Of a stretch of 64,000 nucleotides of DNA, positions 4,701-53,823 are shown piece after piece; position 1 is the first letter of the stretch, and each line of letters begins with the position of its first letter. This DNA comes from Capsaspora owczarzaki ATCC 30864. Its lineage: Eukaryota; Opisthokonta; Filasterea. A model generated the notes under the pieces. The model was not told the DNA's origin. It saw only the letters and a list, made by a program, of their open reading frames with translations, and did not search any database. Made by a program: the position numbers and the translations under genes. The stretch is from contig NW_011887302.1 in the NCBI RefSeq assembly GCF_000151315.2, positions 1,040,913 through 1,104,912 of the forward strand, written 5' to 3'.

Positions 4701-5755
4701 ACTCACACGAGGCATTGCCAGTGCCAGACGAGTGCGTATGACTGAGTTTGAGCGTCAGAGCTGGACAAAGCGGAGAAAGAGCACTTTGAGCGTTGTCTGG
4801 CACCAAAAAAAAAAAAAAAAAGAAAAAAAAAGAAAAAAAAAAAAAAAGAAAAAGGGAAGAACGTGTTGGGCAAAGTCCGACTTTGGAACAGCAACGACAA
4901 CGACGACGACAAACGCAGTTGGAATGGAAGAACATTAGCAATGTGTCACTCGAGCATCCAAACATGAACAACAAGAAAAAGTGGAGAACAGGAAGAAAAA
5001 AAAGGAAATAAAAGTGAAAGAAGGAAAGGAAAATCAGACGCAGCTCGTTTTGGTTTGAAAGGCTTGGTTACAAGCGATTGACAAAGTGAAAGTTTTGTGC
5101 ACAGGTGGATATGATTGCAGTCAAAACAATAAGAACACAACAAGCACCAAGAGAGAGAGAGAGAGAGAGAGCGATTTCACAGCTGAGCGAGCTCAGAGCT
5201 CACCCAATGTTAGCAGCAGTAGTCTGTGCTCGTGTTTTTAAGTGGTGTGTGCGTTGGAAGACATGTTTGCATTGCATCCACCACCATCAACAAAAAAAAA
5301 CCAGTGTGCACGCTTCATACACACACATGCACACTCCCTCTCTGAATCAGAAGGAGAAGGAAGCAGAGTGACAGCTTGAGAATGACAAAAAGCCGGCAAC
5401 TTGGTTTGCTCTTGTCGACAAATATGTCGTGCGGCTACCTTTCCACCTCGGCTTCTACCTCCACTCTCTCTCTCTCTTTCGGTTCTATTGTTGCAATTTT
5501 GATTCTGAAACCTTTGTACAACTCTTGCCTCCCGAGTTCTCATCCCCTCATTGTTCATATCGCTCTCATTGTCTTGATTACTCACTCTCTTTGTCATCAT
5601 CATCCTCCTTTTGTGGTTTGTGTCTGACAGGCAACGTAGAGACAAAGACAAAGATCATCCAACCATCGTTTCGTGCTCCTCCTCGCCGTCGAGTTTTTGT
5701 GATTAGTCCCCCCAGCCAAAAAAACAACCCCCTCCCTCCCCGTGTTCTTCCAACC
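1748..5755. other. 4.0 kb without a recognised gene, upstream of the MLX-like gene
   Basis: I see no gene here. From about 2520 to 3400 the + strand is T- and CT-rich, with several T runs of 13-20. From about 4540 to 5040 it is A- and AG-rich, including a long A run interrupted by G at 4804-4850. From about 5440 to 5750 it is CT-rich again. A short GA repeat lies at about 5152-5170. All open frames are low-complexity products of these tracts. The part next to 5756 is probably the leader and promoter of the MLX-like gene. A possible 5' UTR splice acceptor (TGTCTGACAG) ends at about 5631. Confidence 0.7.
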
Positions 5756-7549
5756 ATGATGGACAACTCGGAAGCCGCGCTCCTCCACGCCGATCTGCAG
5801 TCGGTGATGGGTGGATTGACGTTTGACGTCCCGTCGTCTTCTATGCCCTCCAACACATCCGCAGCTGCCTTCCCAATGTTTCCCGGCGGCATGGCTGCAC
5901 CCGGTCTGCCGATGGCTGGGTTTGGCGGAATGCCGCCGTCCGTGGGCTTTGGCCGCTTTGGCGCCATGCCCTTCGCTGGCCAACCAAACAACGACGCAAT
6001 GTTCTCCATGATGATGATGTCCATGATGGAAGACGGCACTGGTGGCATTGCGCCGTCCACCTCGGCCACAAGCCATCTCGCCCAGCACCCGCTGCTCGGT
6101 GCGCCGTCACAGCCTCAGGCCGTCCATTCCGCGCACGCACTTGCAGCGGCTCGTGCTGCGGCCGCAGCAGCAGCAGGGCTGACATCGATCGACCAATTCG
6201 AGCCCAGTGCTTTCAACTTTATGAACCTTGGCACGACCACCACTCTGCCAACGGCCAACGAGTACTCTGGGCACGACAACGCTGGCGGCAACACCACCAC
6301 CAGCAAGACCGCTGCCGCTGCAGCAGCCAAGAGCAAGAGCACGAGCACACGCACCACAGACGACTTGACAGCAAAGTACAACTTTGCCTTTGACCCGTTC
6401 TCCAAGATGGACGGCGCTGTCGGGCTGTACGCCGCTCAGGCGTCGCCCGTTGGCAGCTACAATAGCAGCGTGGCAAGTAGCAGCGGCATGCACCACCGCC
6501 CAAACAGCATCAAGATGGAGGACGTGTGTGCCGCCTCTCCGCCGGTCGGCCAGTCCCTCGATGAGATCATGTCCACCATCCAGAGCTTGAACGACGACCC
6601 CATTACCAACATGAGCACCGCAGGCAGCAGTATTCGCGGGGAACACAGCGGCATGCTCGACGACTGTCTGAGCGAGCCCCTGTCGCCGACTGGCGACTTC
6701 CCAGACGATGATCTTGCTGCGACCCGCCGTAACGCACACATCCAGGCAGAGCAAAAGCGAAGGAACAACATCAAAGCCGGCTTTGACGAGCTGCAAGTCA
6801 TGATTCCTGCTTGCCAAAAGTCGCCCGCAAGTCGGCAGTCCAAGGCGACTGTGCTGCACAAGGCCGTCGACTACATTCATCATCTTGTTAAGGAAAAGGT
6901 GGCGTTCGTGGACGAAATCAACCGCCTGCGCAAGGAGGTTGCGGCGCTCAAGCTCATCATCAAAAAGTACCAGCAACTCGGCTTTATCAGCGAGACGGAC
7001 ATGAAGGCGTTGATGGGTTCTGGCAGCTCTGCGGTTGCCTCCGCTGGCACTGTCGCTGTGGGCTCGTCTTCCGGTGCAGTTGCCCCGTCAGCAGCCGGCG
7101 TTGCTGCGGCATCAAGCTCGGCAGGCGTGGGCTCGTCGTACGCCGACCAGGTCAAGTTCTTTATCTTTTGCAACGTGGTGGACTTGTTGTGGGAGTCGTT
7201 TAGCGCCAAGGTCTCGCTCGACTCGCCCGAGGAGTTTGCCTCGTCCATCATGGCCTGGTTTGACGAGTTCGCCCGGCCCGACAGCTTGCGGGAAAGCTTC
7301 CTCTCGTCGCTGCGCAACATGGGCACGCGATTCTTGACGGAGGAGTCGATGCAAAAAGTGCGGCGCTGGTCTGGCGGCCTGTCTGCATGCACCGAGCGCA
7401 TTACCTGCGGTCTCGAGCATTCGAACTTGCCGATGGCCCAAAAGCTCGGCGAAACCATTAGTGGGATTGCGTCGCTATTTAGCTACGGTGGTACCAAGGC
7501 TGTTACTTCTGCCCCAGTTGTGACTGACTCACCAAGATCCCAATCTTAA
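5756..7549 (+). CDS. MLX/Mondo-type bHLH-leucine zipper transcription factor
   Basis: This is a single exon of 597 aa. The first in-frame ATG, at 5756, follows a CT-rich leader. The N-terminal 300 residues are Ala/Ser/Met-rich and low in complexity. A bHLH-zipper lies at about residues 324-410 (basic region RRNAHIQAEQKRRNN, then a leucine-rich zipper), close to animal MLX. Residues about 461-525 (VDLLWESF, MAWFDEF, SLRES) match the dimerisation and cytoplasmic-localisation domain that follows the zipper in MLX and Mondo proteins. In animals MLX pairs with MondoA/ChREBP or MXD proteins on E-boxes to control glucose-responsive genes. I did not recognise the N-terminal Mondo nutrient-sensing region, so this is more likely the MLX-side partner. 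A Mondo-like ancestor is the alternative. Confidence 0.85.
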   Translation: MMDNSEAALLHADLQSVMGGLTFDVPSSSMPSNTSAAAFPMFPGGMAAPGLPMAGFGGMPPSVGFGRFGAMPFAGQPNNDAMFSMMMMSMMEDGTGGIAPSTSATSHLAQHPLLGAPSQPQAVHSAHALAAARAAAAAAAGLTSIDQFEPSAFNFMNLGTTTTLPTANEYSGHDNAGGNTTTSKTAAAAAAKSKSTSTRTTDDLTAKYNFAFDPFSKMDGAVGLYAAQASPVGSYNSSVASSSGMHHRPNSIKMEDVCAASPPVGQSLDEIMSTIQSLNDDPITNMSTAGSSIRGEHSGMLDDCLSEPLSPTGDFPDDDLAATRRNAHIQAEQKRRNNIKAGFDELQVMIPACQKSPASRQSKATVLHKAVDYIHHLVKEKVAFVDEINRLRKEVAALKLIIKKYQQLGFISETDMKALMGSGSSAVASAGTVAVGSSSGAVAPSAAGVAAASSSAGVGSSYADQVKFFIFCNVVDLLWESFSAKVSLDSPEEFASSIMAWFDEFARPDSLRESFLSSLRNMGTRFLTEESMQKVRRWSGGLSACTERITCGLEHSNLPMAQKLGETISGIASLFSYGGTKAVTSAPVVTDSPRSQS

Positions 7550-13559: not shown

Positions 13560-16500
13560 TCACTGTCCGCTGAGCGTGCAGTTGGCGGGAGCTGCAGAGA
13601 TGCATCGTTTGTGGCAGTCAAACCCACATTCTAATCGCCAAAAACAATTCATTGGAATCTCGTGAGTGAGAGAGCACGAACACGAAAACAACGAGTAAAA
13701 AACACAACAAAAACAGCACCATGATGCTTCCACGACTTACGACTGCACTTTTGACCTTGCCAGACAAGACCTGCCAAAAATCCACCACAAACGTTGCAAA
13801 AGGTTGGCTTTGTGTATCGATTCGGCTGGAACTGATGATGAACACCAGTCAGTGGCGCGCGAGGCGACAGATTGAGTGCTGTGCCACCATTCACAGCAGA
13901 AGGCAAGCTAGCGTCGAGGTTTAGCTCGATGTCATCCACTGGAAAAAAAATCAACGAGTGAGACGCCAAATCATTCAGAAGAACGCATCGAGCGAAAAAA
14001 CACCGACAACGAACAAAAGCCCAAGCCTTACCCGAAGCACACGAGATCTCACTGTCATCAACCAGAAGGCGGCTTTCTTTCTGCTTGAGTTGAGCAATCT
14101 GGGCTCGCAGCTCTTCGGCTTGCTGTTGCATGGGAAAACAACCAAACACCACGACACAATGAGTTTGTTTTTTGTTGAAGCCCAGCCAATGTGTTCAAAA
14201 ACTACACCAACGCTTCAAAACAACAAAAAACAACAGCCAGTTACCTGATCTACTCGCTTGGAGGCAGGAGTCGGCTTGCTCTGGGCGAACGACATGCGTT
14301 CTTCTTCAACCACAACAAGCGCTTCGACGGCGCGTTCCAGCTCTGACCGTACCTCCTCGACACTGCGCTTGCTTGGAAAGGCCATGGCGTGGTCCTTGTC
14401 CTTGTCCAAGTCCATGAGAATGGGTGTCGCAGGGACGGAGCGCACAGACTTTTGGCCGTCCGTGTTCTGGCGCTCCAAACGCAGTTTTTGGGCGAGCATT
14501 GCATCCTCGTTGTCAACGTCATCCAGGTCTTCGAAATCGTCATGGTTTGCCAACGACAGACCACCTGCAGCGGCGGTCGCGCCTGAACCCATGGCAGACC
14601 TGACGGCACCGGCGGCTGTTGCGGGACTGAGTCCTGTTGGGGTAGTGGCAGCGTTGGACTGCTTGTCCTGCAGTGGCTGAAAGAACATTTCCAATGTTAA
14701 CGTGCCAGACACATGGTCGGATGGATGGCGCCCCCGGAGTGGCAGCGTTCGTTCGTGGATGACCTCTGGTTCCATCATGCTGCGCGGGTAAATGACCTGG
14801 CCGAGGAAGTCGTCCTTGCCGTAAGTGTCATGGTCGTACAAGATGATATGAACAAACAAGTCTTCCGAGGTGATGCGAATGGTGATGGTCTCATTCCACT
14901 GCGGATTTCGCGTTTGGTTGACAATAGCTGAGCGGTGCTCGGTCGCGCCGACCGTCAATACATAGTACGGGTCGGAAGAGCCGTTGATGTCTTGCGCGTA
15001 CACATTTGTGGCACCTTTGACGGTGATGGTCAGCGTGCCAATCACAGCGGCTGGCGGCCCGAGGTTGATGAGCTTGAACTTGGGCGCAACGATGGTGTCT
15101 TTGATGATCATTTCCAGCCGCTTTTTGATCATACGCGTGACTGCACTGGGCGGAGCCAGCACTGAGAACCGCAGCTTGACATCAAAGTCGACGATGGGCT
15201 GCTGGACGAAGGAGATGCGAATCACAGCATTGTTCCGAATCTCGAGCCGCAAGCAACCCTCAAACTGGACAACCGCCACTGAAAGGATGACGTTGACAAT
15301 GTAGTCGGAATGAATGACCAGTTTAGCACCGCCAGCGTACTTGAGCTGAAAGTCGACAATGAGATGTTCAGGCAGCACGGTTGCCGATGCTTCCGGCAGC
15401 GGGACGCCCAGAAGCGATGCCGAAGCCGCTTCGGCCGCGGCAGCCACCGTCCCAGAGCCTGAGACGAGCCGAGCGGATGCGATTTGTGGCAGAGCCGAGC
15501 CAAAGAGAAAGTCTCGAACTTGGAGGTTGGCAGCGATCGGGTGCCGTTTCGCCATCTCCTCGAACGCGTTGCTCAGCCCACTCACCACCTTGGACTGGAT
15601 GCTCTCCACACCAACATGCACAAAGACAAGCTGGTGCAGGAAGGTATTGAGCCACGAGCACGACTCGCTCACAGAGTGGAGGCTTGGTCGCGCGCTGCCG
15701 CCGTTCGAGTAGTCGACAAACAGGTAATCGTCGTCGCTGGTTGAGCGCGCTGCCGGAGTTTCGAGTGGGTCCGCGCCAGGCATTGGCTTGGCAGGATTTG
15801 GGTTTGCACCACTACCGGCAGTTGCTGCAGCAAACGTCGCTTGCGTTGAACCAATCGTGGTGCTGGTGCTTGTGATTGTCGATGTCGTTGCCGTGGATGC
15901 TGCGCTCACAATCGTTGCCATGCTCGGTGGAATTCCGCCATCTTGGACCAGCTGGTGCAGTGTCTGAGCCTGCACTTGCTCTTGCAGCAGCTGCGACTTG
16001 GCGCCTGGCAGCTTGAGCTTGCCCCGTAGCCACGACGCCGGGCCGGTCGAAGTGGTCGAGTTCGAATTTGGCGCGAGTGCTGCTGGAAGACCCGCGAGCA
16101 CCCCTGCGCTGCTTTGGACACTGGCAATGGACCCTTTGCGCGGCTGCGGCTGCTCTGTGATGGCAGAGAGCGATGCCCGTCGCCGCCTGTTCGGAGTTGG
16201 CTCTTGCGACTGAGACTGAGACTGTGACTGGGACTGAGACTGAGAGCCGGGCGGAGTGCTCGTCCCGCTCTTGGACACCTGCGTGTCGGACGAGGCTCCG
16301 GGCACGCTCAGCAGACCAGAGCCGAACACACTGCCAGCAGAAACGGCAGAAGCGACAGACACAGCGCCAGGGCTGGTTGTCGGCGGAGTGGACGTTGCCG
16401 AGAACGACAACGAGCTTGAAGTCGGCTCAGTCATCATCGCTTTGGGCAGCAGAGTCTGAGGAGGGCTCTCTGATAGTAGTGACAATGCTGGTGGTTGTGC

Positions 16501-16656
16501 GGGTGGCAGAGTCGGAGGGGCAGTCGACATGAGCCGCCACTGCTCGTTCAGATTGGCTGGCGGGAGGCGTCGCACCCGGTAGACGAGCGCGACAAGCAAG
16601 GCCTCGGCGACAAAGACCAAGGCAATGCCGAGCGCAAGGCCGTACTCGAACGTCAT
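13560..16656 (-). CDS. PDZD8-like SMP-C2-C1 lipid-transfer protein of membrane contact sites
   Basis: Four exons read leftward: 16656-14245, 14122-14032, 13938-13741 and 13630-13560, giving 923 aa with phases 0/1/1. Residues 1-30 hold an N-terminal membrane anchor. A long Ser/Thr/Ala-rich linker follows. An SMP lipid-transfer domain lies at about 330-527. A C2 domain (about 530-660) has apparent calcium ligands in DINGSSDPYY and DHDTYGKDD. Coiled coils follow. A complete C1 domain sits at the C-terminus with H-x12-C-x2-C-x13-C-x2-C-x4-H-x2-C-x7-C spacing, closed only when exons 3 and 4 are joined. SMP plus C2 plus C1 is the combination found in PDZD8, an ER protein at ER-late endosome/mitochondria contacts. 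No PDZ domain was seen. The C1 keeps Pro, Gly and Gln positions common in diacylglycerol-binding members, so lipid-regulated tethering is plausible. Confidence 0.85.
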
Positions 16657-16993: not shown

Positions 16994-18172
16994 CTAGTCG
17001 TCACCATCGAAATCTTCGTAGTCGTGCGCGTTCATCAGATGGCGATACTTGTTGTAGTTCTCGTCGCTCAGCCAGTTACGTTCAGAACCAGGCGACGACG
17101 AGCAGCCAATCGAGCCAGGGGCGCTGACATGAGCTTTGGAGAATACATCACCACGACGTCTCAGTGGGCATTGGCCCTCGCCCCCACAAGCTGCACAAGA
17201 ATGCTTGTTATCCGACTTTCTTTGAGTCTCGTCGGTGTGACTGCGCATGCTCTGTCGAGGAAGCACCTTGTAGGGGTACTCATGATGGAGCATAACGCAC
17301 TTCCCACCAAAGCAAGGCTGAGAGACATTGCGAGCTGCTGGGCAGGACGTCCACTGGTGCTTGCACTTTGAGCAACGGAAAAAGCCCAGACCAACGGGTT
17401 CGGATCCAATGGGAATCGGGTCATATCGCGTGTTGCAACCTCTGCAGGGCGAGACCGGATTGATCGGGGCGCACTTTTTGTACCATAGCATGCTGCAGCC
17501 CTCGCAGCCAAACATGTAGAGTTGGTAGTGGGAGCGATCCTTGATGGCAACGTTTCTCTCCGTTAGCGGCTTTCGGCTTGCCTTTGACGACGCCACCGAT
17601 GAAACCGAGCTCGGAGCGGAGGGGCCATTGGGAGGCAGGCCGTTGCGCATTGCGCCAAAGTCGACCAGCGCTCCCTGCGGCGCGTCGCCCAGATCGAAAT
17701 CACCGGCAGCAGCCACTGGAGCATTGGCAGCAGCAAGAGCAGCCACTGGAGCACCGCCGCGGCGGCGTCGAGGCAAGCCTCTGCGCGGTTGAGCGGCTCC
17801 AGCCGAATCAGCCGGTCGGTTGTTGTTCTTCCTCCGGTTGGGGCCACCACCAGGCGGAGCAGCTGCAGCCACAAGAGCAACAACAGCTGGAGCAGCAGCA
17901 ACCGGAGCAGCAGCTTGAGCAGCCGCAGGGGCAGCTCGAGGGCGGCGTGAGGACTGAGATTGTTGGAGTACTCCAATGGGACCAGCAAGTCGATGAGCCG
18001 GAGCAGGGTTTGCCGGCTGAGGCTGAACGGCAGGGGCAGCAGCAGGGACAGCAGCAGCAGCAGCAGCACGAGGAGCACGAGGAGCACGAGGAGCAGGAGC
18101 AACAGCAACAGCAGGAGCAGCAGGAGCAGCAGCAGCGGGGCGAGGGTTGCGGGGCTTGGGAGCAGACAGCAT
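16994..18172 (-). CDS. Shiftless-family (SHFL / C19orf66, UPF0515) zinc-ribbon protein
   Basis: A single exon of 392 aa starts at the ATG at 18172. The first ~215 residues are Ala/Pro/Arg-rich and disordered. Residues about 220-340 match the core of vertebrate Shiftless: paired cysteines (GCEGC), a Trp, VSPCRGC followed by RYDPIP (human VSRCRKC and RYEPVP), GLGFFRCSKCKHQW (human GLAEFHCPKCRHNF), a PCFGG motif (human PCYGC), a VLP motif and a late HSC. The C-terminus is acidic, as in the human protein. Vertebrate SHFL is an interferon-induced RNA-binding protein that stops ribosomes during programmed -1 frameshifting. The same biochemical role here is only inferred. The N-terminal Ala/Pro extension differs from animal members. 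A more distant zinc-ribbon relative is possible but less likely, given the ordered match. Confidence 0.82.
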   Translation of the reverse strand: MLSAPKPRNPRPAAAAPAAPAVAVAPAPRAPRAPRAAAAAAVPAAAPAVQPQPANPAPAHRLAGPIGVLQQSQSSRRPRAAPAAAQAAAPVAAAPAVVALVAAAAPPGGGPNRRKNNNRPADSAGAAQPRRGLPRRRRGGAPVAALAAANAPVAAAGDFDLGDAPQGALVDFGAMRNGLPPNGPSAPSSVSSVASSKASRKPLTERNVAIKDRSHYQLYMFGCEGCSMLWYKKCAPINPVSPCRGCNTRYDPIPIGSEPVGLGFFRCSKCKHQWTSCPAARNVSQPCFGGKCVMLHHEYPYKVLPRQSMRSHTDETQRKSDNKHSCAACGGEGQCPLRRRGDVFSKAHVSAPGSIGCSSSPGSERNWLSDENYNKYRHLMNAHDYEDFDGDD

Positions 18173-29800: not shown

Positions 29801-32800
29801 AGGAAAGGGCTCCCAGTATGGCCTCGACGCTCGCCTTGGACCCGTGAGCGTCAAGCAGGTGACGTACTTGTCGCAAGATAATACCAAGCACACCGAGGAG
29901 CCTCTGGACCTTTCCACCATGCAAAAGAAGGTTGCGACCTGGTTGATCGACATGAACTCGAGCGTCGACGACGAGGTTTTCTTTGAGCGAGAGCACTACA
30001 CTGGCAGCGATTTGAAGCGTAATTTGCATGTTTACCACACGGTGACGATCTGTGCCAGCAAGTTCTCGGCCAAGGATTTCGTGAACATTGGCAAACCGAA
30101 AAAGCCAGAATTTGTGCAAGTCGTCTCGTTTTCCCACAGCGGCGCGGACGAAGCAGACATTAGCCAACCTCGGCTTCATTACAACAAGGTGCTCAACTCG
30201 AGCGGAGACACGGACGCCAACCCCGAGGTCCATCCACACGAGAAGCTGTTGACCGACATCCTCACCAACATCAAGGTGGTCACCTTGGCGGACCTGAAGC
30301 GCCTGGACGACAGCATTGCAAACGCCCTGTTTGTTCGCTCGATGGGAGACAGTGCTGATGCGTGGGAGCACATCTCAAAAGCCAAAGCGCCCGTCATGGC
30401 CACCTCGTTCGATGGGTATTTGAATGTTGGCGCGATGAGCGTGACGAACAAGGAGCTGGGTCAGACCGAGGCCATTCCTCAAGGCGTGTCGCTTAACATT
30501 TTCTTCCAGTGTGGGAATTGCGGCGCCTCCAAAGAGGGATGCAGTGTTTGCGACAGCATCCGGCTGAGCTCCACAATGCAAGAGCAGCATGTGTCTGACG
30601 CGCTCAAAGCAGCCTCCGCTAAATTCAAACAGCTGCCCAAGGATAGGATTCGAAGCATCTTTTCTGCCGAGTCCAAGAAAAAGTTCAAGATTGACAACTT
30701 GGCCATGCACAGTTTCAACACGAAGAATCTTTTCAAGCTGCCTGGGCACTACTACGTCGTGGCGATGCCGTACCAAAACAGCGAGATCCTGTCGACTGTT
30801 CAGCCGTCTTTCACAAAGATTGAGGTCGAAGGTGGGATGCCGGCGAAGGCAGAGATTGAGTTTGACAAGTTCGACCTGAAGAAGGGATTGCCGATTGGCT
30901 GCCCGCTCGAGCTGTCCGTCACACTGTTTGACGAGTATGGCAATCACACCACTCGTGGGGTGAATACGCAAGCTCGCGCAACCCTCTCGCTTGCCGTTGT
31001 TCGCAAGGACTCGGCAACTGCCCCGCTCTTTGACTTGACTTTGTCTCAGCAGCCGCTCAAGTGCGTGGATGGGAAACTTTCCGGCACCATGACCATCCAA
31101 CCTTCGAGCGAGTGGCGCTCACGCAAGACCTTCCCCAAGCTGACAATCCAGGGAACACTGGCTTTCGTGTCTCCAGACCAATCGCAGCTGGTGATTGAGC
31201 CCTTCACCGTGACGCCAGCTCCGGGCCTTCCTGCATCTCTCCAAGCAACATCAAAGACTATCAGGCTGCTTGAGGAGGTGTACGACGTGAATCAACCGTT
31301 CCCGTCTCGCTTGGAGTTCACTGTGTGTGACGCGTACGGCAACGAGGTGCGCCCCAGCGAAGGCGGGCACTTTCGTGCGAGAGCGACTGGCGACGACGTT
31401 GGTCTGTCAAAGCCGTTGATCCTAAAGTCGGATTCGGACGGTGTGTTGAGCATTGACGAAGGCCAGCTCACGCTCAAGCAGGCGGACTCTGTTCTGTACA
31501 TCGAGCTGGCAGATGTTGCGAACGCCGTCCCTTTGGAAGTGGTATGACGCCAGAGAGATTCGGATGTTTCTAGCTGGAGCTCAGTGATTGTGTGAGTTGC
31601 TAACTGCTTTTTTCGGCGGGTCGGATGTCTCCACTTTTCGATATATTTGACAGACGCTTCATGGATCCACTTTTCACATTGCGCTGCTCAATGACGGCGT
31701 TCCTGTGCAGATGATCAACGGAGCGGGATTTATCACCGCTCCTGTTGGCACAATCCTGTCTGACCTGCAATGCGTCCTGACCCGCAACGACGTTGCAGCC
31801 GATTCGAAGCACGTTTACCCAAGTTGGGTTCGTAACTCTGGGTATGTCACTAATGCCGATGGCATTGCCTCGCTTCCGGCAATCGAGTGTAGCAAAATAC
31901 TCCAAGAGCTACAGTTTGGACTGCAGCTGGCGCTGAAAGGCGAGTCGGTCTTCAGCTTTACGGTCAAGACGACTCCTGGTCCGGTATCAAAACTCAGCGT
32001 CGGCGTCGTGAAGGGGTCTCCGCCAGTCTCGAGGGTGTCCAGCGCGCCATGCAATGTGTGCCGCAAAAAGCCAAACGAAAAGAATCGTCTTGTGGCTTGC
32101 TCGGGAGAGTGCCCGATTCACACCGCCAACTACCATCCCAAATGCGCTGGAATCGATGAGGCGAATCAGAATCTCGACAATTTGTCATGGCTGTGTCAGT
32201 CCTGCACTCAAATTGCCAACAAGAGCGAGATCTCAGTGTACCTGTCCGCGACAGATGAGTTTGGTAATGTAGTGACAGCTCCGCAATGCAGCGAGCTGCA
32301 CATCCTCCCGGAGGCGCTTTCATCGGAGGACTTTGACCCGAACTTGCCCGCCCAAACGATTGCGCAAAGCGAAGCCGACGTCGCGCCAATGTCTGTTGTC
32401 ACTGCTGGTCCGAGTCGAGCCAAGAGCTCGTCCAAGCCGAGCCACGGTGTCGCGGATGTTCCCGGCAACTCGGGCGCCATTGCTGCCCATGGCTTGACCG
32501 CCACGTATGCCTTTTCGCAAGCAACAGCAAGCGGAACGGCGTGCCAACTGCTCAAGCTGCGAGTCTCTGCCGAGGGTGCCGAGCAATCGTTCCGATTGCG
32601 CGTGCGCGACCCCAAGCATGGAATTTTGACATTCATTCCATTCCGACTTGTGGCGGGGGCTCCTGCAGGCTTCCGACTCGCAGACCATGACAGCAATCAA
32701 CCGCTCGTCCTCGAGAACGGATCGAGCCCCGCTTTGACGGTTCATGTCGTGGACAGCAACGGCATGGTTGTCTCGAGCGTTAGCGGCGGAGTTCGCGTTG

Positions 32801-35086
32801 CGTTTGTGAAATGCCCGCCCATCCTGAAGCGCAGCGTGGAAGTCGATATTGCTCACGGCGTGGGGCTGTTTGCAATGCAGCAGTTGCCAGTCTTGGCCGC
32901 CATTCCGGAGCAACAGTTTATTCTCGAACTCGTCGGAGCGAAGGGCTTGGCCAATCTGCCGAAAACGACGATTCCGTGCCAGCTCGTCGGCCGTCTGCAG
33001 ATGCCCACGAAAGTGACGATTCACAATGTTGAAACTACCCCTCTCCAGCACTCTGGAACCGGCCCGTTCTTTGACATTCGGCCGTTCTCTTGCGCCGTCG
33101 AGACCGAGCGCCAAGACGATCTGTCGGACGATTGGGTCGTCACAGTGACTGTCCACAAGTTCCAAGGCGCGTCTCAGCCAGTGGTCATGACCGGGACCAA
33201 GGGCCAATCCCAGCGCAACACTTTCGAATTCCCATCGACAAGAATCTCGACAACAGAGGCCGGCGGCTACATTCTCCAAGCCAAGCTCGTCAATCAAAGC
33301 ACAGGCCATGAGGCGGTCTTGAGCGGCAAACCGGCGGGTGTGCAAGTCGCCGCTGGCGCTCCCCATTCTCTCCGTCTGCTCTCCTCTCCGTCAGAGTCCG
33401 TTCATGGTGGCTCGACCCTCGACGTGGTTCGCGTGTCCGTTCTGGACAAGTCTGGCAATGTGTGTGGTGCCAAACCAACCTCCGACTTTTTGAGCTCGGT
33501 CGAGCTCAAGAGCGACCAAAGCAGCCAGTCTCGGTTGACTGCTGCGATTGCCATCTCGCCGGTCGCCAGCGGTCGAGTCGACCTTGCTCCCGGATCCATT
33601 CTTCAAGCGCAAGTGGTCGGTGGCGTGGCACAATTCCAGAAAATTGATGTGATCGACGGCCCGGACGGCTCTCTGTCCGTCGCTGTTCGGCTGTTGGATT
33701 CTCGCGTCGATCCCGTGACGTTTGTTGTTCCCTTTATGAGTGGTAAGTGGCTTGGGAGCACTGCTTGGTTTTGTGATGGGGTGCTGGGTGTTTAGCTGAC
33801 GATTCTGTCCTTTGACTACAGCCGCGTCTTGGAGTCAAATGTCGAGCGAGCAACAGCGCGTGTCGATGGAAGCAGCCCAGTTGAGTGAGCAACAAAATCA
33901 AATCAAGATGAGGCTTCAAGCGTTGAATGAAGAGTACGGACTGAAGCGGCAGCGCGCTGAGAGAGCCGAGAAAGAGTTTATCGCGGCGCAGCAGACCGTG
34001 GTTCGGCTCACCTCACGTCTTGCAGCACCCGGCGCCGACGGAGATCATGGCGCCCAGCTTCAAGCGTTGTTGAAGCGTGGTAGCACCGACCGCTCGTTCG
34101 CTCCGGGCCCAAAACCACGCGACTACCCGTCGGCCATGCGTCGTGTCATCGACTGTGGCCGAATTGAAGACAGTCAGATTGCAGCAGTCATCGAGACTCT
34201 GCTGGGATCTAGCATGCGCATGGGAGTGATCGATGTTCCCATGGGCTCGCCCGAGTTTGTACGCTTGACCAACGCCAATGCTGGTGACCGCGTTCTCAAC
34301 CTCCAGAACCCTCGAACGGCCAATTCATTCTTCCGTCAGGGTGTCAACAATGACAGCCAACGCACCTTGAAGCTTCCTCGACCCGCTCACGCTGCTGGAT
34401 TCATCGACTTTGCAGTCAACATGATTTTCTTGGAGAGGGAGACTGTCTCCGAGCGAGCCACGGTTTGGTACTTTTTGCTCCGTGACGCGATGATTTTTGA
34501 AACGCAAAAGCATCTGCGAGACTTTGCAGAGCAAATCCGGTCGACCGACAAAATGCCGAACTTGATCGCGCTTGACGGTTACCTCATGCGTGGCGATGGC
34601 ACAACTCAGAAGATGAAAGTTCCCAAACGATCTCAATTTGCAGCCGTCGAAGACGCCAAGCGGTTGGCCGTCGATGCACAGGGGTCACACACGCTCGATC
34701 CACTGCTCCGTACTCTCTTGCAAGGACACATCCAGTCTCAGTACGATAACAAGAAAGTGGCTGAGGCTCAAGAGGTGCTGATTGTCAAGTCCAATGAGCG
34801 GAACGAAGCGACGATGGCTGCCAAAGCGTTGATTGAGCAGCACCAACGTACGTCGATGCAAATGCACGCCGAAAGCTGTTTTTTGTGTACTTTGTTGAAA
34901 TTATCGCTCACGATGGTGTTGTCTACAGAGCTGAAGGGAGAACTCGAGGGAATTGAAGCTCGGCTGCAGCAGCTGAGTGTGCACCGCAGTCAGCTGCTTG
35001 GAACGCACGCTCCACCCGCCAAGCGTACTCACGAGGACGAGGATGACTCTGCCACCACTCGTCGAGTCAAGTCGCGCAGCGCATGA
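26895..35086 (+). CDS. SMCHD1-like GHKL ATPase with SMC hinge and inserted PHD finger
   Basis: Proposed exons: 26895-26926 (weak donor, start uncertain), 27024-27702, 27838-29101, 29179-29378, 29469-31541, 31654-33742, 33822-34847 and 34929-35086. From 27838 on, phases close exactly. The total is about 2,500 aa (human SMCHD1 is 2,005). A GHKL ATPase near the N-terminus shows TALADMMDNSIEAT, DNGRGM and YGVGLKAS. Repeated Ig-like beta domains make up the middle. At about 32040-32220 there is a C4HC3 PHD finger (CNVC, YHPKC, WLCQSC), and near 30508 a small CxxC pair. An SMC hinge follows at about 34120-34640, flanked by coiled coils, with the VVPFMS-to-coil junction matching human LPFMF. SMCHD1 silences chromatin in mammals; plant GMI1 shares the layout. 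The catalytic Glu position is Asp here. Confidence 0.85.
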
Positions 35087-36956: not shown

Positions 36957-39585
36957 ATGATGCGTTTCCAGTCATCGGTGCTTTGCATTGCACTTGTTGC
37001 ACTTGCCATTGCTGCTGCCAATGCAGACGACCGCATTGTGAATCTGCCTGGCCTGCCCGCCAGCCTCGCCAACCTCGAGATGTACTCTGGCGCGGTCGTC
37101 GTCAACGCGACCCACCAGCGATCCCTCTTCTACATGCTCGCCATGTCCCAAGGCGACAAGAACAGCGATCCCCTGTAAAAACCATAGCCCTACAGTTTGG
37201 CTGGAAATGCATTGCAACTCGTGTCTGTCTTTTTGGTCGTGACCTTTCATTGCGCTCCTTCTGCTGCTCCTGCTGCTTGGGCTTCGCGCGTTCGTCGTGC
37301 TCTCCTCTCATTCCTCAAATCAAATCTGGGGACGTTGCTCAGCCCGAAGCGTGCAGTCTAGCGCTGGCTTTGGATTACAGGAGCACACAATCAAAAACCG
37401 CGACGGATGAGGTTTTTTTTTTTTTTTTTTTTTGGTTTTTGTTGATTTCTCAGTTTTTCAGATTTTTGTTTTTGAAAAAGCAAAAATAACAACAAAAAAC
37501 GTCAGCGAACAAAAGAAAACAAAAAATATCAACGAGTTCGCGATGGCGATTGAACACATGCAATGTGCCCCAGCATGATGAAAGGCTCAGAGTTGGTGGA
37601 CGGGTTGGTGAAAATTCAAGGTCGTAACGTTTTGTTTGTTTGCTCACTTTTGTTCTGAATCACTTTGCAATGTTCGATGATTTTGTTTCACGACAGCGTC
37701 GCTTTCCTCAACGGCGGGTAAGTTTGGTTTGTGGACATTTGTTGGCTCGAGTTGCTTTTTGCCATGCCACTCGCTCACTGTTTGACTTTTGCTCTTGTTC
37801 CGGTGTTCAGTCCCGGCTGCTCGTCCCTCGGTGGCGGCATGATGTCCGAATGCGTAAGAACACTTGTCGTTCTTTGCATGTATGCGTGTTTGCTTCAAAA
37901 CTTTTGCATTGTACAAACAGGGCCCCTGTCAGTCCTTCCATTTCCTTGCATTCAGCGCTCATCCCACAGAAAACTCCGGCTCTCTCACCTTGCTTGTTTG
38001 TTTGTTTGTTTGTTTGTTTGTTTTGTTTGTTTGTTCTTTTTTTTCACCTTCAAAACTCAAAAACAGTCTTCCCCGATGCCAACGGAAACCTCCTGGAAAA
38101 CCCCAACAGCTGGAACAAGATTGCCAACCTGCTTGTCGTCGAGAGCCCCTCTGGCGTCGGCTTTAGCACCTCGCAGAACACAGCCGACTACAACACTGGC
38201 GACGTCCAGACCGCCCAGGACTGGCTCGCCTTCCTGCTCATCTTCCTCGCCAAGTACCCCCAGTTTGCCAACCGCCCCTTCCACATTGCCGGTGAATCGT
38301 ACGGCGGACACTACATCCCCCAGCTTGCCAAGGCCATTCTCGACTCGAACGCTGCCGGCATCAACCCCAAGATCAACCTCGTCTCTTACATGGCTGGCAA
38401 CCCCTGGACTGACACCACCATTGACAACATGTACACTGCCCAGAGCTGGTGGGCCCGTGCCATCAACTCGTACGAGACCTGGAACGGCATGGCCACCTAC
38501 TGCGATTTCGGCAAGATTGGTGAGTGTTTGTTTTTGTTTCTCGGTCGATTTTTGCTGCTGCACGCAAGTTTGTTCGCATTGCATCTCGTTCATTTATTTT
38601 CTCACGCTTTGTGATTTTGATGCAGGCCCGCTCGCCGCTCTGGAAGTCGCCCAGTACAACGCCCCCGACCCGCTCAAGTGCCAAAAGTTCGTCACCGCCA
38701 GCACCAACGAGATGGGCAACATTGACATTTACGAAATCTACCAAGACGTCTGCCTGGCTGGCCCCGACGGCCGTGTCGGCGCTCGCAACAACCACGGTGC
38801 TCACCTGCTCAAGGCTCTTGCCAAGGGTCCCGACGCCCACCTCACCATCCTCGGCCACCTTGGCCGCCGCATTCTCGAAGCCGAGAAGAGCCGTCCCCAG
38901 AAGCTCCGTCGCGATCCCCCGGTCGAGCCCTGCATTGACGACTTTGTGCAGACCTACCTCAACCGAGCGGACGTCCAGGCTGCCATCCACGCTCCCACTC
39001 TCTCCTACGGCTGGATGGACTGCTCCAACATTGTCAACTACTCGTACAACGATCTGCTTGCGTCCGTGCTCCCCCTGATCCAGACGCTCACCAAGTCTGG
39101 CATCCGCATGCTCATGTAGTAAGTAGTCGAGTGTTTTGGCCATTTGGGGTTGGGCACCGTCGTCTGATTTTTTTTTCTTTGGTTTGTTTTCAACTCATTT
39201 TTTTGTTGTTGTTGTTGTTGTGCAGCACCGGTGACCATGACGGTATCATTGCCTCGCTCGCCACAACCACCAACGTCCGCGCGCTCAACCTGACCGTTGT
39301 CCAGAACTGGCGCCCGTGGATTGGCAGCGACCAGCAAGTCGCTGGCTTTGTCGAGACCTACAACGGCATGACCTTGGCGACTGTTCGCGGTGCTGGGTAA
39401 GATCGCGAGAGAGGGAGAGAGATGGAAGCAGGTCTCTTTGTGCTTTTTGGCTTGCTGTGATGTGGCCTCTCACTCCTGAACCTTGCCCGTCTTTTTTGCT
39501 GCCGTACAGTCACATGGTTCCTTACATTCAGCCCGCTCGCGCCTTCGATCTCTTCAGCCGCTGGGTGAACAACAAGCCGCTGTAA
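36957..39585 (+). CDS. Secreted or vacuolar serine carboxypeptidase (peptidase family S10)
   Basis: Eight exons close in phase: 36957-37174, 37697-37717, 37811-37853, 37921-37927, 38067-38519, 38626-39118, 39226-39396 and 39510-39585, giving 493 aa. The start MMRFQSSVLCIALVALAIAA is a clear signal peptide. The substrate-carboxylate loop NGGPGCSSLGGG is assembled from exons 2 and 3. The 7-nt exon 4 supplies Gly-Pro and the first base of Phe, and exon 5 continues FPDANGNLLENPNSWNK. Catalytic residues are visible: Ser174 in GESYGGHYIP, the Asp of the GDHDG motif near residue 415, and His470 in GHMVP. Family members cut single C-terminal residues in lysosome-like or secreted compartments. No ER-retention or membrane signal was seen at the C-terminus. 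Intron 1 is long (522 nt) with a T run of about 24. Confidence 0.95.
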
Positions 39586-39804
39586 ATCGAGCCAAGCCCT
39601 GATGAGCATTGCGATTTTGCTCTTCCCAGCACACCAGTGTGTTTTCGTTTGTTTTTCGCATTCCAAAATAAACAAGTGCTGCGTCAGTCCGTTTTGTTGG
39701 TGCACAGTTTTGCTCTAGTCTCAGTCATATTTTTTCGCACTCCTCTCTCATCCGCTCAGACAATCAGACTTTTGACAATTCTTCATCAATTTCGCTCATA
39801 ATTC

Positions 39805-39806
<2 letters not shown>

Positions 39807-39842
<36 letters not shown>
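39807..39842. repeat. CT dinucleotide microsatellite before ALG6
   Basis: A nearly pure run of about 18 CT units ends 30 nt before the ALG6 start codon, so it lies in the leader or promoter. Length variation between strains is likely. Confidence 0.95.
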
Positions 39843-39843
<1 letters not shown>

Positions 39844-39871
39844 GCTGTCTCACTCGTCTTCTTCTAATCCA

Positions 39872-42016
39872 ATGAATTCGATGGAGCTGCAGTCTGCGCT
39901 CGCGTCGTCGTCGTTCGTGGCGATCGTCGAGCAGGAGCGACTCCAATCCCAGGCTGCCATTCTCGTTGCCACCCTGGCGCTGCTCGTCCGCGCGGCCGTC
40001 GGACTCTATCCGCATTCTGGCCAGGCAACCCCGCCAATGTACGGCGACTACGAGGCCCAGCGCCACTGGATGGAAATCACGCTCCATCTGCCTCCCGCCG
40101 AGTGGTACCACAACTCAACCTCCAACGATCTGCTCTACTGGGGCCTGGACTACCCGCCGCTCACTGCCTACGGCTCGTGGCTCTGTGGCGCAATGCAAGT
40201 TCTCACATTCGCGTTTTCCTTGCTCTGCGCGGAGAACTTGACGTTTTCGTCCAACTTTGCAAATTTTCTGAGAAATTTCAGAGTTTGGAAAGTCACTCAA
40301 TTGTGTTATTTCCGTTCTTGTTATCCAAAAATTGCTGTCTTTGTACGACAGAGCGCACTTCTTCGACCCGGAATGGGTGGCGCTGGACACTTCGCGAGGG
40401 TTTGAATCGAAAAGCAGCAAGGCGTTCATGCGAGCCACTGTGCTCGTGAGCGATTTGCTCATCTTCTTTCCAGCAGTGTTCCTGTTCTGCCGGCAGATTC
40501 TCGCCGATTTCACAAGGTCAAAGCAGGTATATTTTTTTTTTGTGGCGGTTGCTCAAGTCTCTACCTGGTGAATATTTGAGTGCGCTAACCGCAACCACGT
40601 CGTCGCTCTTCTCGGGGGTCAGATTGCAATCGCCTTCATGATCCTGCTGCAACCAGGGCTCATTCTGATCGATCACGGCCACTTTCAGTACAATTGCATC
40701 AGTCTTGGACTCGCACTTCTGGCAATCGTGGCAGTCATGCGAGACTGGGATATTCTTGGCAGCGTTCTGTTCTGCCTGTCTCTCAACTACAAGCAGATGT
40801 CGCTCTACTATGCACCCGCTTTCTTTAGCTTTCTTCTTGGCAAGAGTCTTCAGTCGGCACATCCGTAAGTGATTTTTGCTTTGTTGGGTTGTTTGATGTG
40901 ACGAAACGTACGATGGAGTTTGGCTCATCGCACCTTTTTCTCGAAGAGTGTTGCGCATAGCAGCGCTCGGCGTTACAGTGATTGCGACATTTGCTCTCTG
41001 CTGGCTGCCCTTTTTGACCTCCATCGATTCGGTGGCCCAAGTCTTGCATCGCATCTTCCCAATTGGACGCGGGCTCTTTGAGGATAAGGTCGCAAATGTA
41101 TGGTGCGCTGTTTCCGTTCTCATCAAGTTGCGAGCCATCTTTGAGCAAGCGCTTCTTGTGCGAATCAGGTATGGTCGCATGGTCGCATGGCTACTCCGTT
41201 GTCGAAGCGAGACTCGCGAAATTTTTGTGCTCACCTTGTCACCACCACTCCAGTGCGATTTGTACTCTCCTCGCAATTCTCCCAAGCTCTGTCAATCTAG
41301 CTCTGCGGCCAAGCCAGACTGGATTTCTATACGCTCTGGTCAACTCTTCGCTTGGATTTTTCCTGTTTTCGTATCAAGTTCACGAAAAGTCCATCCTGCT
41401 CGTCGCGCTCCCAGCTTCCTTGCTATTAGCCTCAGATCCTCTCAACGCGGTCTTCTTTTTGCTGCTTTCCACGGCAAGGTATGTTTAACGGGATGCAGAT
41501 GAAAGGTTGAACGGAATTCGATGATTTTTGTGTTTCCAACTTTTACCTCTTCTGTTTTTTTGTTTGCCAGCATGTTCCCGTTGTTGCACAAAGACGGCCT
41601 GGCAATTCCATATGCAATTTGCATCGTCTTCTTTGTGATTGTTGTGCTGCACATGCTGAATGTTTCCCTGCAAGCTTGTCAACACCTCACCACCATCGGC
41701 AAGCTTCAGGTAAATCGCCAACACACGCACACATACCCGGAAAAAAGTGATTGGTTGGTTGGTTGTAGTTTGGCTCACAGCGAGTGACTCGGTTTCTTGT
41801 GTGAATTTGCAGCTTGCAGCAGTAATTGTGTGCTTTTCAGGGCTGCACTTGGCGTGGTACTTTTACATTCCTCCAGCACATCTCCCTCACGCAAACTTGC
41901 TCCTTTTCGCCGTCGTCTCGTGTGCAAGCTTTGTTCTATTTGCCGTGTATTTCAACTGGCGGCAGTGGCAACTCAACGGCGTGCCTACCTCCACACACAA
42001 GCTGAAACACTCCTGA
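39872..42016 (+). CDS. ALG6: ALG6, dolichyl-P-Glc:Man9GlcNAc2-PP-dolichol alpha-1,3-glucosyltransferase
   Basis: Seven exons: 39872-40194, 40352-40526, 40623-40864, 40947-41168, 41254-41478, 41571-41709 and 41813-42016, giving 509 aa (human is 507). The first luminal loop carries [13 protein letters not shown] with the predicted catalytic Asp59, then [15 protein letters not shown]. Later signatures include [27 protein letters not shown] and [11 protein letters not shown], with many hydrophobic segments as expected for an ER GT-C enzyme. It adds the first glucose to the lipid-linked N-glycan precursor. ALG8 is the sister family, but the loop motifs favour ALG6. Intron 1 needs a GC donor (GCAAGT at 40195); a GT donor three bases later would put exon 2 in the wrong frame. 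The joined protein aligns without gaps at this point ([12 protein letters not shown] against human CAYVAKFINPDW). Confidence 0.95.
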
Positions 42017-42999: not shown

Positions 43000-43355
43000 A
43001 TTTGCATCTGCAGCTGTGGCTGCTGTTGCATTTGAGATGCAACCATGGGCTTTTGATGCTGCACGAGGCTGGGGTAGCTCATGTCAATCATGTCTGCAAA
43101 CGAGGTCGTCGTTTTACTGCCAGAGGAGGGAGTTTGCGCCATGGAAGGGGCCGGCGCCGTGGTGACAAAGCCCAAGTTCGAGCTGCTTCCTGACGAGTTC
43201 AGAAAGCCAAGGCTGGAGGCGCTGTTGCTCGAAGGCGTGAGCAGCGTCACGTTGGACGGAAACATGCCGACTGCTTGGCCTTGGTGTGCGATAAAATGCG
43301 TCTGGCTTGGCACTTGCACCACTTGTTGGAAAGGCATCACACCCTGGATGAATCG

Positions 43356-43393
<38 letters not shown>

Positions 43394-44520
43394 GCTGCTG
43401 CTGCAGCTGCTGTGGCTGCTGCATCTGCATTGGAAGAGAAATCATATGTGGTTGAGATTGCGACTGGTGAGGACGGAACTGTTGTTGTTGCTGCTGTTGT
43501 TGTTGCAGGAACACTTGCGATTGTTGGGTGGCGAGCTGCGGGAATTGCTGCATGCTGTTGTTGTTGTTGCGGCTGATGCTGATGCTGATGACGATGTGGC
43601 TGCTGCTGTTGCTGCTGCTGCTGCTGGTCAGACTTGACATCCGGAGATCGTCCCATGGCAGCCGCCGCAGTGCTGATGTGCGCTTCGCTGTGGCGATAGA
43701 GGCTGGCCACGTCAGAGTAGCGGCGGCCACACCCCGGGTACACACAGACAAAGGGCTTGTCTGCCGCAGTGTGCGACGTCGAGTGGTGTTCGAGGGACTT
43801 GGCCTCGGAGAAGCGCTTGCCGCAGCCTTGGACGGGGCACGCAAACGGCTTTGCGCCGGAATGCGAGCGCATGTGCTTTGTGAGAATGTCGAGGCGGGAA
43901 AAGTGCTTGCCGCAGTTGTTGATGGTGCATTCGTATGGCTTCTCGCCAGTGTGCGTTCGCAGGTGCGTCACCAGCTTCTGGCGCGTGGTGAATGCACGAC
44001 CGTTGCGGACGCAGCCAGTCCAGCCGCAAAAGCCGTCCCAGTTGTCGTGGTTGTTGCGTCGCGACTTGACATGCTCAATCATGAGGTGCTCGACCATCAT
44101 GTCGAGTGTGGCAAAGTCCAAACCACAGCCAATCCACTGGCAAATCGATTTGGCGTGGCTGACCAAGCCGGCAGCGACCGTCGACGCAGCCGCAGCCGCA
44201 GCCTGCAAAAAGGACGACGAGGTGAGGATTGGCGTCGACAGCGATTGCATGCCACCGACAGCAATGCTGGGTGGTGATGAAGTGGAGACACCACCGCGCG
44301 AAGCGAACTGCGCGGCGGACGCAAACTGTCCGTGGTTGTTCTTGGAGCCAGCCGCGCCGAGGCCACCATTCACAAGCATTCCGTTGGCACTGTGCATCAC
44401 GTCGCCAAACATGGCATTTGCAGAGGTCGCAAATGTTTCGCCAAATCCCACCGTGTCGGCTTCCTCGTCACTGCTGACGCTGCTGCCGGCATCACCCCGG
44501 TTTTGCTGGCTGCTCGACAT
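42333..44520 (-). CDS. GLI/GLIS/ZIC-type five-finger C2H2 transcription factor with Gln-rich tail
   Basis: The start ATG is at 44520 (MSSSQQNRGDAG). Residues about 125-277 hold five C2H2 fingers in the GLI/GLIS/ZIC pattern: an atypical first finger (CQWIGCG, long spacing to EH), a second with CGWTGC, then HTGEKPYECTINNCGKHFS, HSGAKPFACPVQGCGKRFS and KPFVCVYPGCGRRYS. The tail, about 480 residues, is rich in Gln, Pro, Ser and Met, like activation domains. The N-terminal frame stays open to 43114, but its sequence after about 43640 becomes Thr/Ala repeats. A second frame, open to the stop at 42333, carries the natural-looking tail. A 103-nt intron (43638-43536, GTCAAG donor, CCGCAG acceptor, phase 0) would join them. 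An indel in the CAG run would too. Total is about 690 aa with that intron. Confidence 0.8.
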
Positions 44521-45287
44521 GCTTGGTTTTTTGTTTTGCAGAGCTTTCAACTGGCGCCTTGACACGTGAAGCAGGTCCAAAAAGCACAGTCGAGGAGATC
44601 TAGATCGTTGAAACGGGGTTGGGTTGTTGACAAAAGGTGTGTTTGGAAGATCTGAGATCTGTTTTCACACACAAGGACAAGATGTGAGTCAAAGACCGAG
44701 GACAGCATCATGATGGCATAAAGCAGGGGTCGCGGATGGACGATAGAGAGAGACAGAAAGAGAAAAGGAGAAGAGGAAATCAACAATAGACTCGCTGCTT
44801 CTGAGATTCGCATCAGATCGCGCCAAATTTCGCGTGGTGGCTTGCACATGCGCACAATCCCATGCGTCTCGAAGAGTGTGTAGCTGTATGTTGTTGTATG
44901 TTGTTGTTGTTGTTGTGTGTGTGTGCAACCTTCGACCGCAGTGTAAGCAGCGTAAAATGGAAAAAAAAGACAGGAAATCAAAGAAGAAGAAGAAGAAAGA
45001 AAAAAAAAAAAACCGCAATATTAAAGGCAGCGTGCAAAAAGTGACACGCAAAAAAAGGGGGAAAAAAAAAAAAAAAAAAAAAAAAGGAAAAAACGAGTTT
45101 GAGAGTCAAAACAAGACCACAAGAACAGAAAAAAAAAACCATGAATGCTGCTGACGTTGGATTTGGATGGAGGCGTCAAACAAGATGAGCAACGAGGAAG
45201 TGGGAAAGGGGGAAGGGGGAAGGGGTTGAGGGGCTCAGGAACATGACATTGGACGGATTTAGCAAAAAGATGGAAACATCAAAAATC

Positions 45288-52381: not shown

Positions 52382-52683
52382 AAGCTCCCCCCCCCTCAGG
52401 CTCACAGCTGTGCGTTACAGCACGCTCTATTCATCCCAATCGTCACATGTGTTTTTGGTTTGACTCTTAAACTTTTGTTTTTTGTGGCTGAAACAGTAGA
52501 AAACACGCATTTGGTCAGATGACCTTGTGTGGTACTGCTGGGAAGGGGTTTTGTTGAGGTTTCAAGACCCATTGCAATACAAAAATTCATAAACCAAACA
52601 CAAGAAATCAAAACAATAAAACCCAATCCATCTCAGTTTTCTCAGTTTTTTTTTTTCTTGATTTTCATTGGTTTTCCATTGTT

Positions 52684-52719
<36 letters not shown>

Positions 52720-52831
52720 CCATTCAAACAAACCAGCAAAACTTCACTCTTTCACTCCTTCACTCACTCTTTTCTCTTTCAAGGGCGGGGGCGTCTGTTC
52801 TTTATTCGCAAGTTTTCCTGTCAGCTTCGAA
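52382..52831. other. Spacer between MOCS3 and the neurobeachin-like gene
   Basis: This 450-nt spacer has an AATAAAA near 52614 and a T run of about 31 at 52689-52719, followed by a CT-rich leader before the next ATG. No gene was seen. Confidence 0.6.
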
Positions 52832-52922
52832 ATGGACTGGTTCCGCAGCCGGTTTGCGTCGGGCAGCTCGACGGGTGGCTTCACGACGAGTCTCGCGTCG
52901 AGTGGCGGGCAGTCGCTGAGCG

Positions 52923-52953
<31 letters not shown>

Positions 52954-53406
52954 ACTCCAGTCGTCATCAGCAGCATCAAACTCAGCCTCAGGAACGACGA
53001 CTGTTGCAGGCGGGTCGCTGCTGGCCTCGGCTGAAGCAGTGGCTGCCGCGCAGGGACTCCACGGCGGGCTCCAGCTGCCCGGCACAGCCCTCGCAGCGCT
53101 CCCCTCCGTCCACACAGCCACTGCAACTGGGACCTCTGGGACAACGACCACTTCTGCTGGCAGCAGTGGCTCGGCGGCCGCCGCGTCCGTCTCGATGATG
53201 ATGATGAATGGGCTCTTGTGCAAAAAGTGTTACACGGACATGTCCCTCTTCCAGCACCGCGTCGCCGTCAGCGCGTCGTCGAGTGGTGCAAAGGCATCTG
53301 CAGTCGCATTGCCGGCCGTCGGGAACGCGGCGTGGACGGCGTTCTGCTGCTCTCAGCCAGCAGCCACCAATGCAAACCCCAATCCGACGTCGCCGTTGTC
53401 GTCGCC

Positions 53407-53476
<70 letters not shown>

Positions 53477-53784
53477 ACAGCCACCGCGTCGCAGCCAGTC
53501 ATCAGCGCGTCTGCGACACTGGCAATGCTGTGGCAACGCTACGTCGAAGCGCTGCGAACGGCGGATCTGGTCGCCGTCGACCCGCTGCTCGACGACTTTC
53601 TGGTCGTCCTGCTCGAGCAGAACGCGAACGTCCGTGCATTGCGCGAGCCTGTCAACCTCTCCGATGCGGCAACACTGTCGTCTGCGCCAATGCTGGCTTC
53701 GCTCGTGTCCAACCCGGCGTCGGCGGCCACTCGTGCCCCGATTCGGCGCGCTTCCAGCACAATTTCCACAAGTCGCTCCAGTGG

Positions 53785-53823
<39 letters not shown>

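Follow-up and report, generated by a model that had tools for sequence, protein, structure and literature searches.

A divergent Shiftless relative in Capsaspora owczarzaki, with homology to vertebrate SHFL detected in the zinc core

Human Shiftless (SHFL), which also goes by the names C19orf66, RyDEN and IRAV, is described as an interferon-stimulated antiviral protein. Here we analyse a stretch of 64,000 nucleotides from Capsaspora owczarzaki ATCC 30864 (contig NW_011887302.1, positions 1,040,913 to 1,104,912, hereafter the window), in which a minus-strand gene encodes a true, divergent relative of this protein (SHFL/UPF0515).

In human SHFL, the core comprises a PABPC-binding stretch (residues 102-150), a zinc ribbon (112-135) and a region on which antiviral activity depends (164-199); exchange of the ribbon cysteines is reported to abolish binding to ribosomes and to RNA, and deletions at the C-terminus are reported to be tolerated in part, with partial activity remaining (PMC11055011). 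Residues T250 and T253 are each described as required for the inhibition of -1 programmed ribosomal frameshifting (-1PRF), T250 being tied to polysome association, and the T250A change is reported to leave binding to RNA, uL5 and eS31 unaffected (PMC12724340). The role of the basic residues of the ribbon is contested: with R131, R133 and R136 changed to alanine, the protein bound RNA less well and inhibited -1PRF less in vitro (PMC8310280), whereas in cells the replacement of the ribbon basic residues by alanine abolished the suppression of Gag-Pol and left RNA and ribosome binding intact (PMC11055011). Human SHFL made in bacteria is reported to bind 80S ribosomes in vitro (PMC8310280). It has been proposed that the human protein recognises spontaneously frameshifted ribosomes constitutively and at a low level, that it recruits eRF1/3 and feeds ribosome quality control, and that SHFL provides a housekeeping removal of frameshifted ribosomes in higher eukaryotes (PMC10747187).

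The Capsaspora frame (16994-18172, minus strand) is read with the standard code, has both its ATG and its stop and needs no intron. The original prediction, made from the letters alone, had proposed a SHFL relative outside animals, and the searches bear this out. The protein matches the Pfam family UPF0515 (PF15135) with 221.4 bits against a cut-off of 29.8, over profile positions 1-271; the core alone gives 178.7 bits, and the N-terminal half gives 19.0 bits (profile 1-80), below the cut-off. Because Pfam yields 221 bits where a profile lacking the Capsaspora protein yields 51, and 19.0 bits for the N-terminal half where a vertebrate N-terminal hidden Markov model (HMM) yields -2.4, it is probable that the PF15135 seed already includes the Capsaspora protein or one closely related to it. 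The Pfam score is therefore probably partly circular, and the independent test is an HMM made from 62 of the 125 other SHFL clusters with the Capsaspora protein left out. This HMM scores the core at 51.0 bits, and none of the shuffled controls (n = 6000) exceeds 26.0. The best shuffle in each set of 2000 reached 12.7 bits when shuffled freely, 11.0 with C and H fixed and 26.0 with C, H, W, P and G fixed (106 shuffles of the free set and 11 of the C+H-fixed set scored too low to be reported). Across the six frames of the window the runner-up has 5.8 bits, and the alignment itself is limited to residues 199-328 (human ~86-207; 49.7 bits).

Comparison with individual proteins gave the same assignment. 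A phmmer search of PDB sequences returned human SHFL (9kbo_A) at E 9.8e-13 as the sole match at E up to 10, and an alignment-profile (A3) search of the same sequences returned human SHFL only, the next entry standing at E 0.62. In the reverse direction, a vertebrate query, sturgeon SHFL (P0070), run against the whole genome (27,456,641 bases, 29 contigs) found the SHFL locus at E 2.8e-8 as the only significant match, followed by an entry at 0.25; a Pfam search of the genome likewise found one SHFL locus. Identity to other SHFLs is ~26-33%. The protein database already carries the Capsaspora protein under the tag PF15135, so that its membership had been catalogued automatically; its core-only character is new here. 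PF15135 itself is described merely as 'Uncharacterised protein UPF0515' and probably already holds a unicellular holozoan sequence.

Six motifs had been said to follow vertebrate SHFL in order and spacing: VSPCRGC (residues 240-246), RYDPIP (249-254), GLGFFRCSKCKHQW (261-274), PCFGG (286-290), VLP (303-305) and HSC (324-326). The order stands, all six being present in the human sequence of succession; the spacing stands only as far as the cysteine of PCFGG. Up to that point, cysteine distances are within one residue of those in human SHFL (C226 to C243 is 17, as is C115 to C132 in human SHFL), and past it they diverge, with PCxxC replaced by PCFGGKC and a step to HSC that is 8 residues longer than in human. 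All four cysteines of ribbon 1 are in register with 33 of 33 other aligned SHFLs. Ribbon 2 has three of four in register, and its fourth ligand is shifted by two residues. Among the 33 aligned SHFLs, every ribbon 1 cysteine and three of the four ribbon 2 cysteines are invariant. A third candidate site aligns partly to the vertebrate HSC..C....C-x-H and falls in a low-confidence stretch of both predicted models described below.

Structure prediction, which had been suggested as a check on the original prediction, agrees with the sequence searches: Foldseek retrieved human SHFL as the top match for both of two predicted models of the core. For the model of residues 196-345, four human SHFL chains lead (best E 6.2e-06) and the next unrelated entry is at 0.063; the best comparison with human SHFL has a query-normalised TM-score (TMq) of 0.45 and a root mean square deviation of 4.4 over 109 columns, with 31% identity. 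The ribbon 1 block has a predicted local distance difference test (pLDDT) score of 89-91. The models support the SHFL core fold. Among viral predicted structures, none matched at E <= 0.001 (best 0.045).

As far as sequence comparison can tell, homology to vertebrate SHFL is detectable in the zinc core alone. An HMM of 61 sequences covering the vertebrate N-terminal helical domain (human 1-103) gives -2.4 bits on the Capsaspora protein, and its best score among 1644 six-frame segments of the window is 6.6 bits (E 0.88). For the vertebrate C-terminal region, with its nuclear export signal (NES), coiled coil and Glu-rich helix, a 62-sequence HMM gives -1.9 bits on the protein and nothing significant in the window; a short acidic run is found in its place. 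The motif of the CK1 site that holds T250/T253, [SD]T[VI]xTC, is absent from the Capsaspora protein and present in 111 of the 125 other SHFL clusters, the remaining 14 (175-343 aa long) being taken to be isoforms or partial models; elsewhere in the window, TVxTC occurs as two remote matches on the other strand, at 25474 and 38794. The equivalents of R131/R133/R136 are P, R and N, so that only R133 is kept. The motif was read in 117 of the 125 clusters, all of which have R (110) or K (7) at position 131; positions 133 and 136 are themselves variable across the other SHFL clusters. Since T250/T253 and the N- and C-terminal parts were not found and residue 131 is proline, human-type activity cannot be assumed. 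The N-terminus of the Capsaspora protein contains RRG and RRRRGG runs and has a net charge of +17 across residues 1-199.

The host, judged from the letters to be an apparent unicellular holozoan, is indeed one: Capsaspora owczarzaki is a filasterean, and its genome carries integrin-beta, T-box and Runt genes (domain matches: six integrin-beta, counted as four loci; six T-box; two Runt loci). The other SHFLs form 125 clusters, vertebrate where named and 11 without an organism name. Queried against proteins, residues 190-392 recovered only the protein itself (1 of 164 candidates). A human plus Capsaspora profile recovered 277 proteins of 2535 candidates, and the best 120 of these 277 comprise the Capsaspora protein itself, eleven records that lack an organism name and otherwise vertebrate proteins; a consensus query against proteins of ~353 aa or longer recovered 13 of 27 candidates, all vertebrate. 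These protein searches rely on shared 5-residue words, which shorter or more divergent relatives could escape. No SHFL relative was confirmed in viral, bacterial and archaeal contigs and phages with a few peptide patterns or tblastn, a search that distant relatives could also escape. Six-frame searches of the genome for IRF, for the Rel domain and for PF13695 (3CxxC) were empty, as were those of the control genomes; they do not show absence, because Rel gave no match though NF-kB is reported in Filasterea (PMC13042239). Among the literature matches listed, which largely exclude subscription journals, SHFL is not discussed in Capsaspora or any non-vertebrate.

What Capsaspora shares with human SHFL is the part tied to ribosome and RNA contact, and what it does not share includes the parts tied to regulation and human-type -1PRF inhibition. 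We lean towards a divergent SHFL whose old zinc core is an RNA- and ribosome-associated factor, later recruited by interferon. The core would act constitutively and would recognise ribosomes in an abnormal state, whether stalled or frameshifted. Some general affinity for RNA may come from the basic, Arg-rich, low-complexity N-terminal region. A block of -1 frameshifting that is driven by interferon and gated by phosphorylation would be a later vertebrate addition. That the protein already worked as such a translation factor before interferon we put at roughly even chances. The homology of the core suggests that the zinc core is older than interferon; this follows only if the gene was inherited vertically, which the Capsaspora protein alone cannot prove. 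A point that weighs against carrying findings over from one SHFL to another is the reported failure of frog SHFL to restrict hepatitis C virus in human cells (PMC10433982). More tentatively, and with some doubt on our part, the core could be a pre-animal ribosome-surveillance module that sensed frameshifted, hyper-rotated or stalled ribosomes in a unicellular ancestor, with neither interferon nor CK1 gating, to which vertebrates added the N-terminal domain, the T250/T253 phospho-switch and the acidic tail and so obtained an inducible antiviral. If this were true, Capsaspora would reveal the original job of SHFL. A core-only homologue in a unicellular holozoan separates the old zinc ribbons from the parts found only in the other, vertebrate, forms, and the role of SHFL before interferon becomes testable, transfection and genome editing being reported for Capsaspora (PMC6001378, PMC9170242).

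A protein of the same family could have a different job in Capsaspora, as an RNA-binding zinc-ribbon protein of mRNA storage, mRNA decay or the nucleus that does not act on frameshifted ribosomes. This seems to us rather unlikely. The missing T250/T253, N-terminal domain and two of the three arginines R131/R133/R136 fit such a role (PMC12724340, PMC8310280), but the zinc ribbon is retained, and human SHFL is reported to need it for binding both ribosome and RNA (PMC11055011), the T250A protein keeps its RNA, uL5 and eS31 binding (PMC12724340), and the bacterially made human protein still binds 80S in vitro (PMC8310280). In another reading, the gene encodes a working restriction factor against viruses or retroelements, which would suppress -1 frameshifting in elements like that at the left edge of the window; we regard this as very unlikely. 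Membership in the SHFL family and the retroelement integrase at 84-1652 invite the idea, but ~15 kb lie between that element and the SHFL gene with nothing linking them, no frameshift site was demonstrated, and the residues that human -1PRF inhibition needs are absent.

Capsaspora lives in snails, and a contaminant or a recent transfer from an animal has to be weighed. Every named relative among the matches listed is vertebrate, and the codon usage of the N-terminal half is unlike that of the core (relative synonymous codon usage (RSCU) correlation with neighbour genes 0.63; third-position GC content (GC3) 0.40), though this half is low-complexity. The identity of only ~26-33% argues otherwise, as does the position of the gene between other genes on a 1.29-Mb contig. 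Contamination is also unlikely because the codon usage of the core matches the neighbour genes (RSCU correlation 0.89; GC3 0.63 vs 0.66-0.68), and we hold either event to be highly improbable. Finally, the protein might be a zinc-ribbon protein of the RTP/ZAR1-type 3CxxC family whose likeness to SHFL lies in its cysteines only, a reading to which we give almost no credence. The profile search that had been proposed to separate the two families places the protein far above the UPF0515 cut-off and leaves PF17180 (3CxxC_2) at 18.2-20.2 bits, under the 27 bits that Pfam sets as its cut-off; chains of ribosomal zinc ribbons do about as well, and what other SHFLs match instead is a mixture of generic ribbons. 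PF13695 is unlisted for the Capsaspora protein at E up to 10, no shuffle with C, H, W, P and G fixed exceeds 26.0 bits, against 51.0 for the real core, and in Foldseek the lead of human SHFL amounts to four orders of magnitude.

The features of the gene and of the window are collected in Table 1. At the left edge of the window, the plus-strand retroelement frame carries two domains, an integrase core (rve) at 45.3 bits and a Tf2-1-like SH3 domain at 39.5 bits; some of the sequence immediately upstream of it appears to be masked. The next long same-strand frame downstream of the SHFL gene (14215-16656, minus strand) encodes a protein with a C2 domain and an SMP/MMM1-like match that stays below threshold (14.2 bits, cut-off 21.9), a combination like that of extended synaptotagmins. 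A plus-strand frame that stays open for at least 3826 aa extends from 52523 to 64000, where it runs off the window, and encodes solenoid domains of the neurobeachin family (DUF4704, DUF4800, Neurobeachin); very long proteins of this sort are the ones for which protection by SHFL-like surveillance has been proposed. Upstream of the window (L002, 4068-4393) there is a tandem array with an 8-bp unit and 27 overlapping registers.

Table 1. Positions of the SHFL-family gene, its parts and other genes, counted from the first letter of the window
Feature	Positions	Strand	Description or basis
SHFL-family gene (UPF0515)	16994-18172	minus	392 aa, ATG to stop, single exon
N-terminal low-complexity region, residues 1-189	17606-18172	minus	Ala/Pro/Arg-rich, net positive
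Conserved SHFL zinc core, residues 199-330 (human ~86-207)	17183-17578	minus	HMM without the Capsaspora protein; predicted models
Zinc ribbon 1, C223-x2-C226-x16-C243-x2-C246 (human C112/C115/C132/C135)	17435-17506	minus	alignment; predicted site
Zinc ribbon 2, C267-x2-C270 ... C287 ... C292	17297-17374	minus	alignment; predicted site
Possible third zinc site, H324/C326/C329/C335/C357	17102-17203	minus	inferred; only partly alignable
C-terminal residues 358-392	16997-17101	minus	closes with acidic run DYEDFDGDD
bHLH factor	5372-7549	plus	
PHD finger	31651-33795	plus	
Serine carboxypeptidase	37722-39119	plus	
ALG6/ALG8 glucosyltransferase	39776-40405	plus	
C2H2 zinc-finger protein	43114-44664	minus	

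Set against known systems, the ZAR1/RTP 3CxxC proteins can be overlaid on the Capsaspora protein across the second ribbon only, with scores below the family cut-offs. Human SHFL differs from it in having an N-terminal helical domain, the T250/T253 CK1 switch, the NES and the Glu-rich helix, none of which was found in the Capsaspora protein, which has instead a long Ala/Pro/Arg-rich N-terminus. Within the core, R131 and R136 of the human protein correspond to Pro and Asn, and the fourth ligand of ribbon 2 is displaced. In the zinc-ribbon core, the Capsaspora protein and human SHFL (PDB 9kbo) share the PLTE.N helix, the C-x2-C-x16-C-x2-C ribbon with its following Trp, and the series VS.CR.C..RY.P.P, GL..F.C.KC.H, PC[YF]G, YP...LP and HSC.
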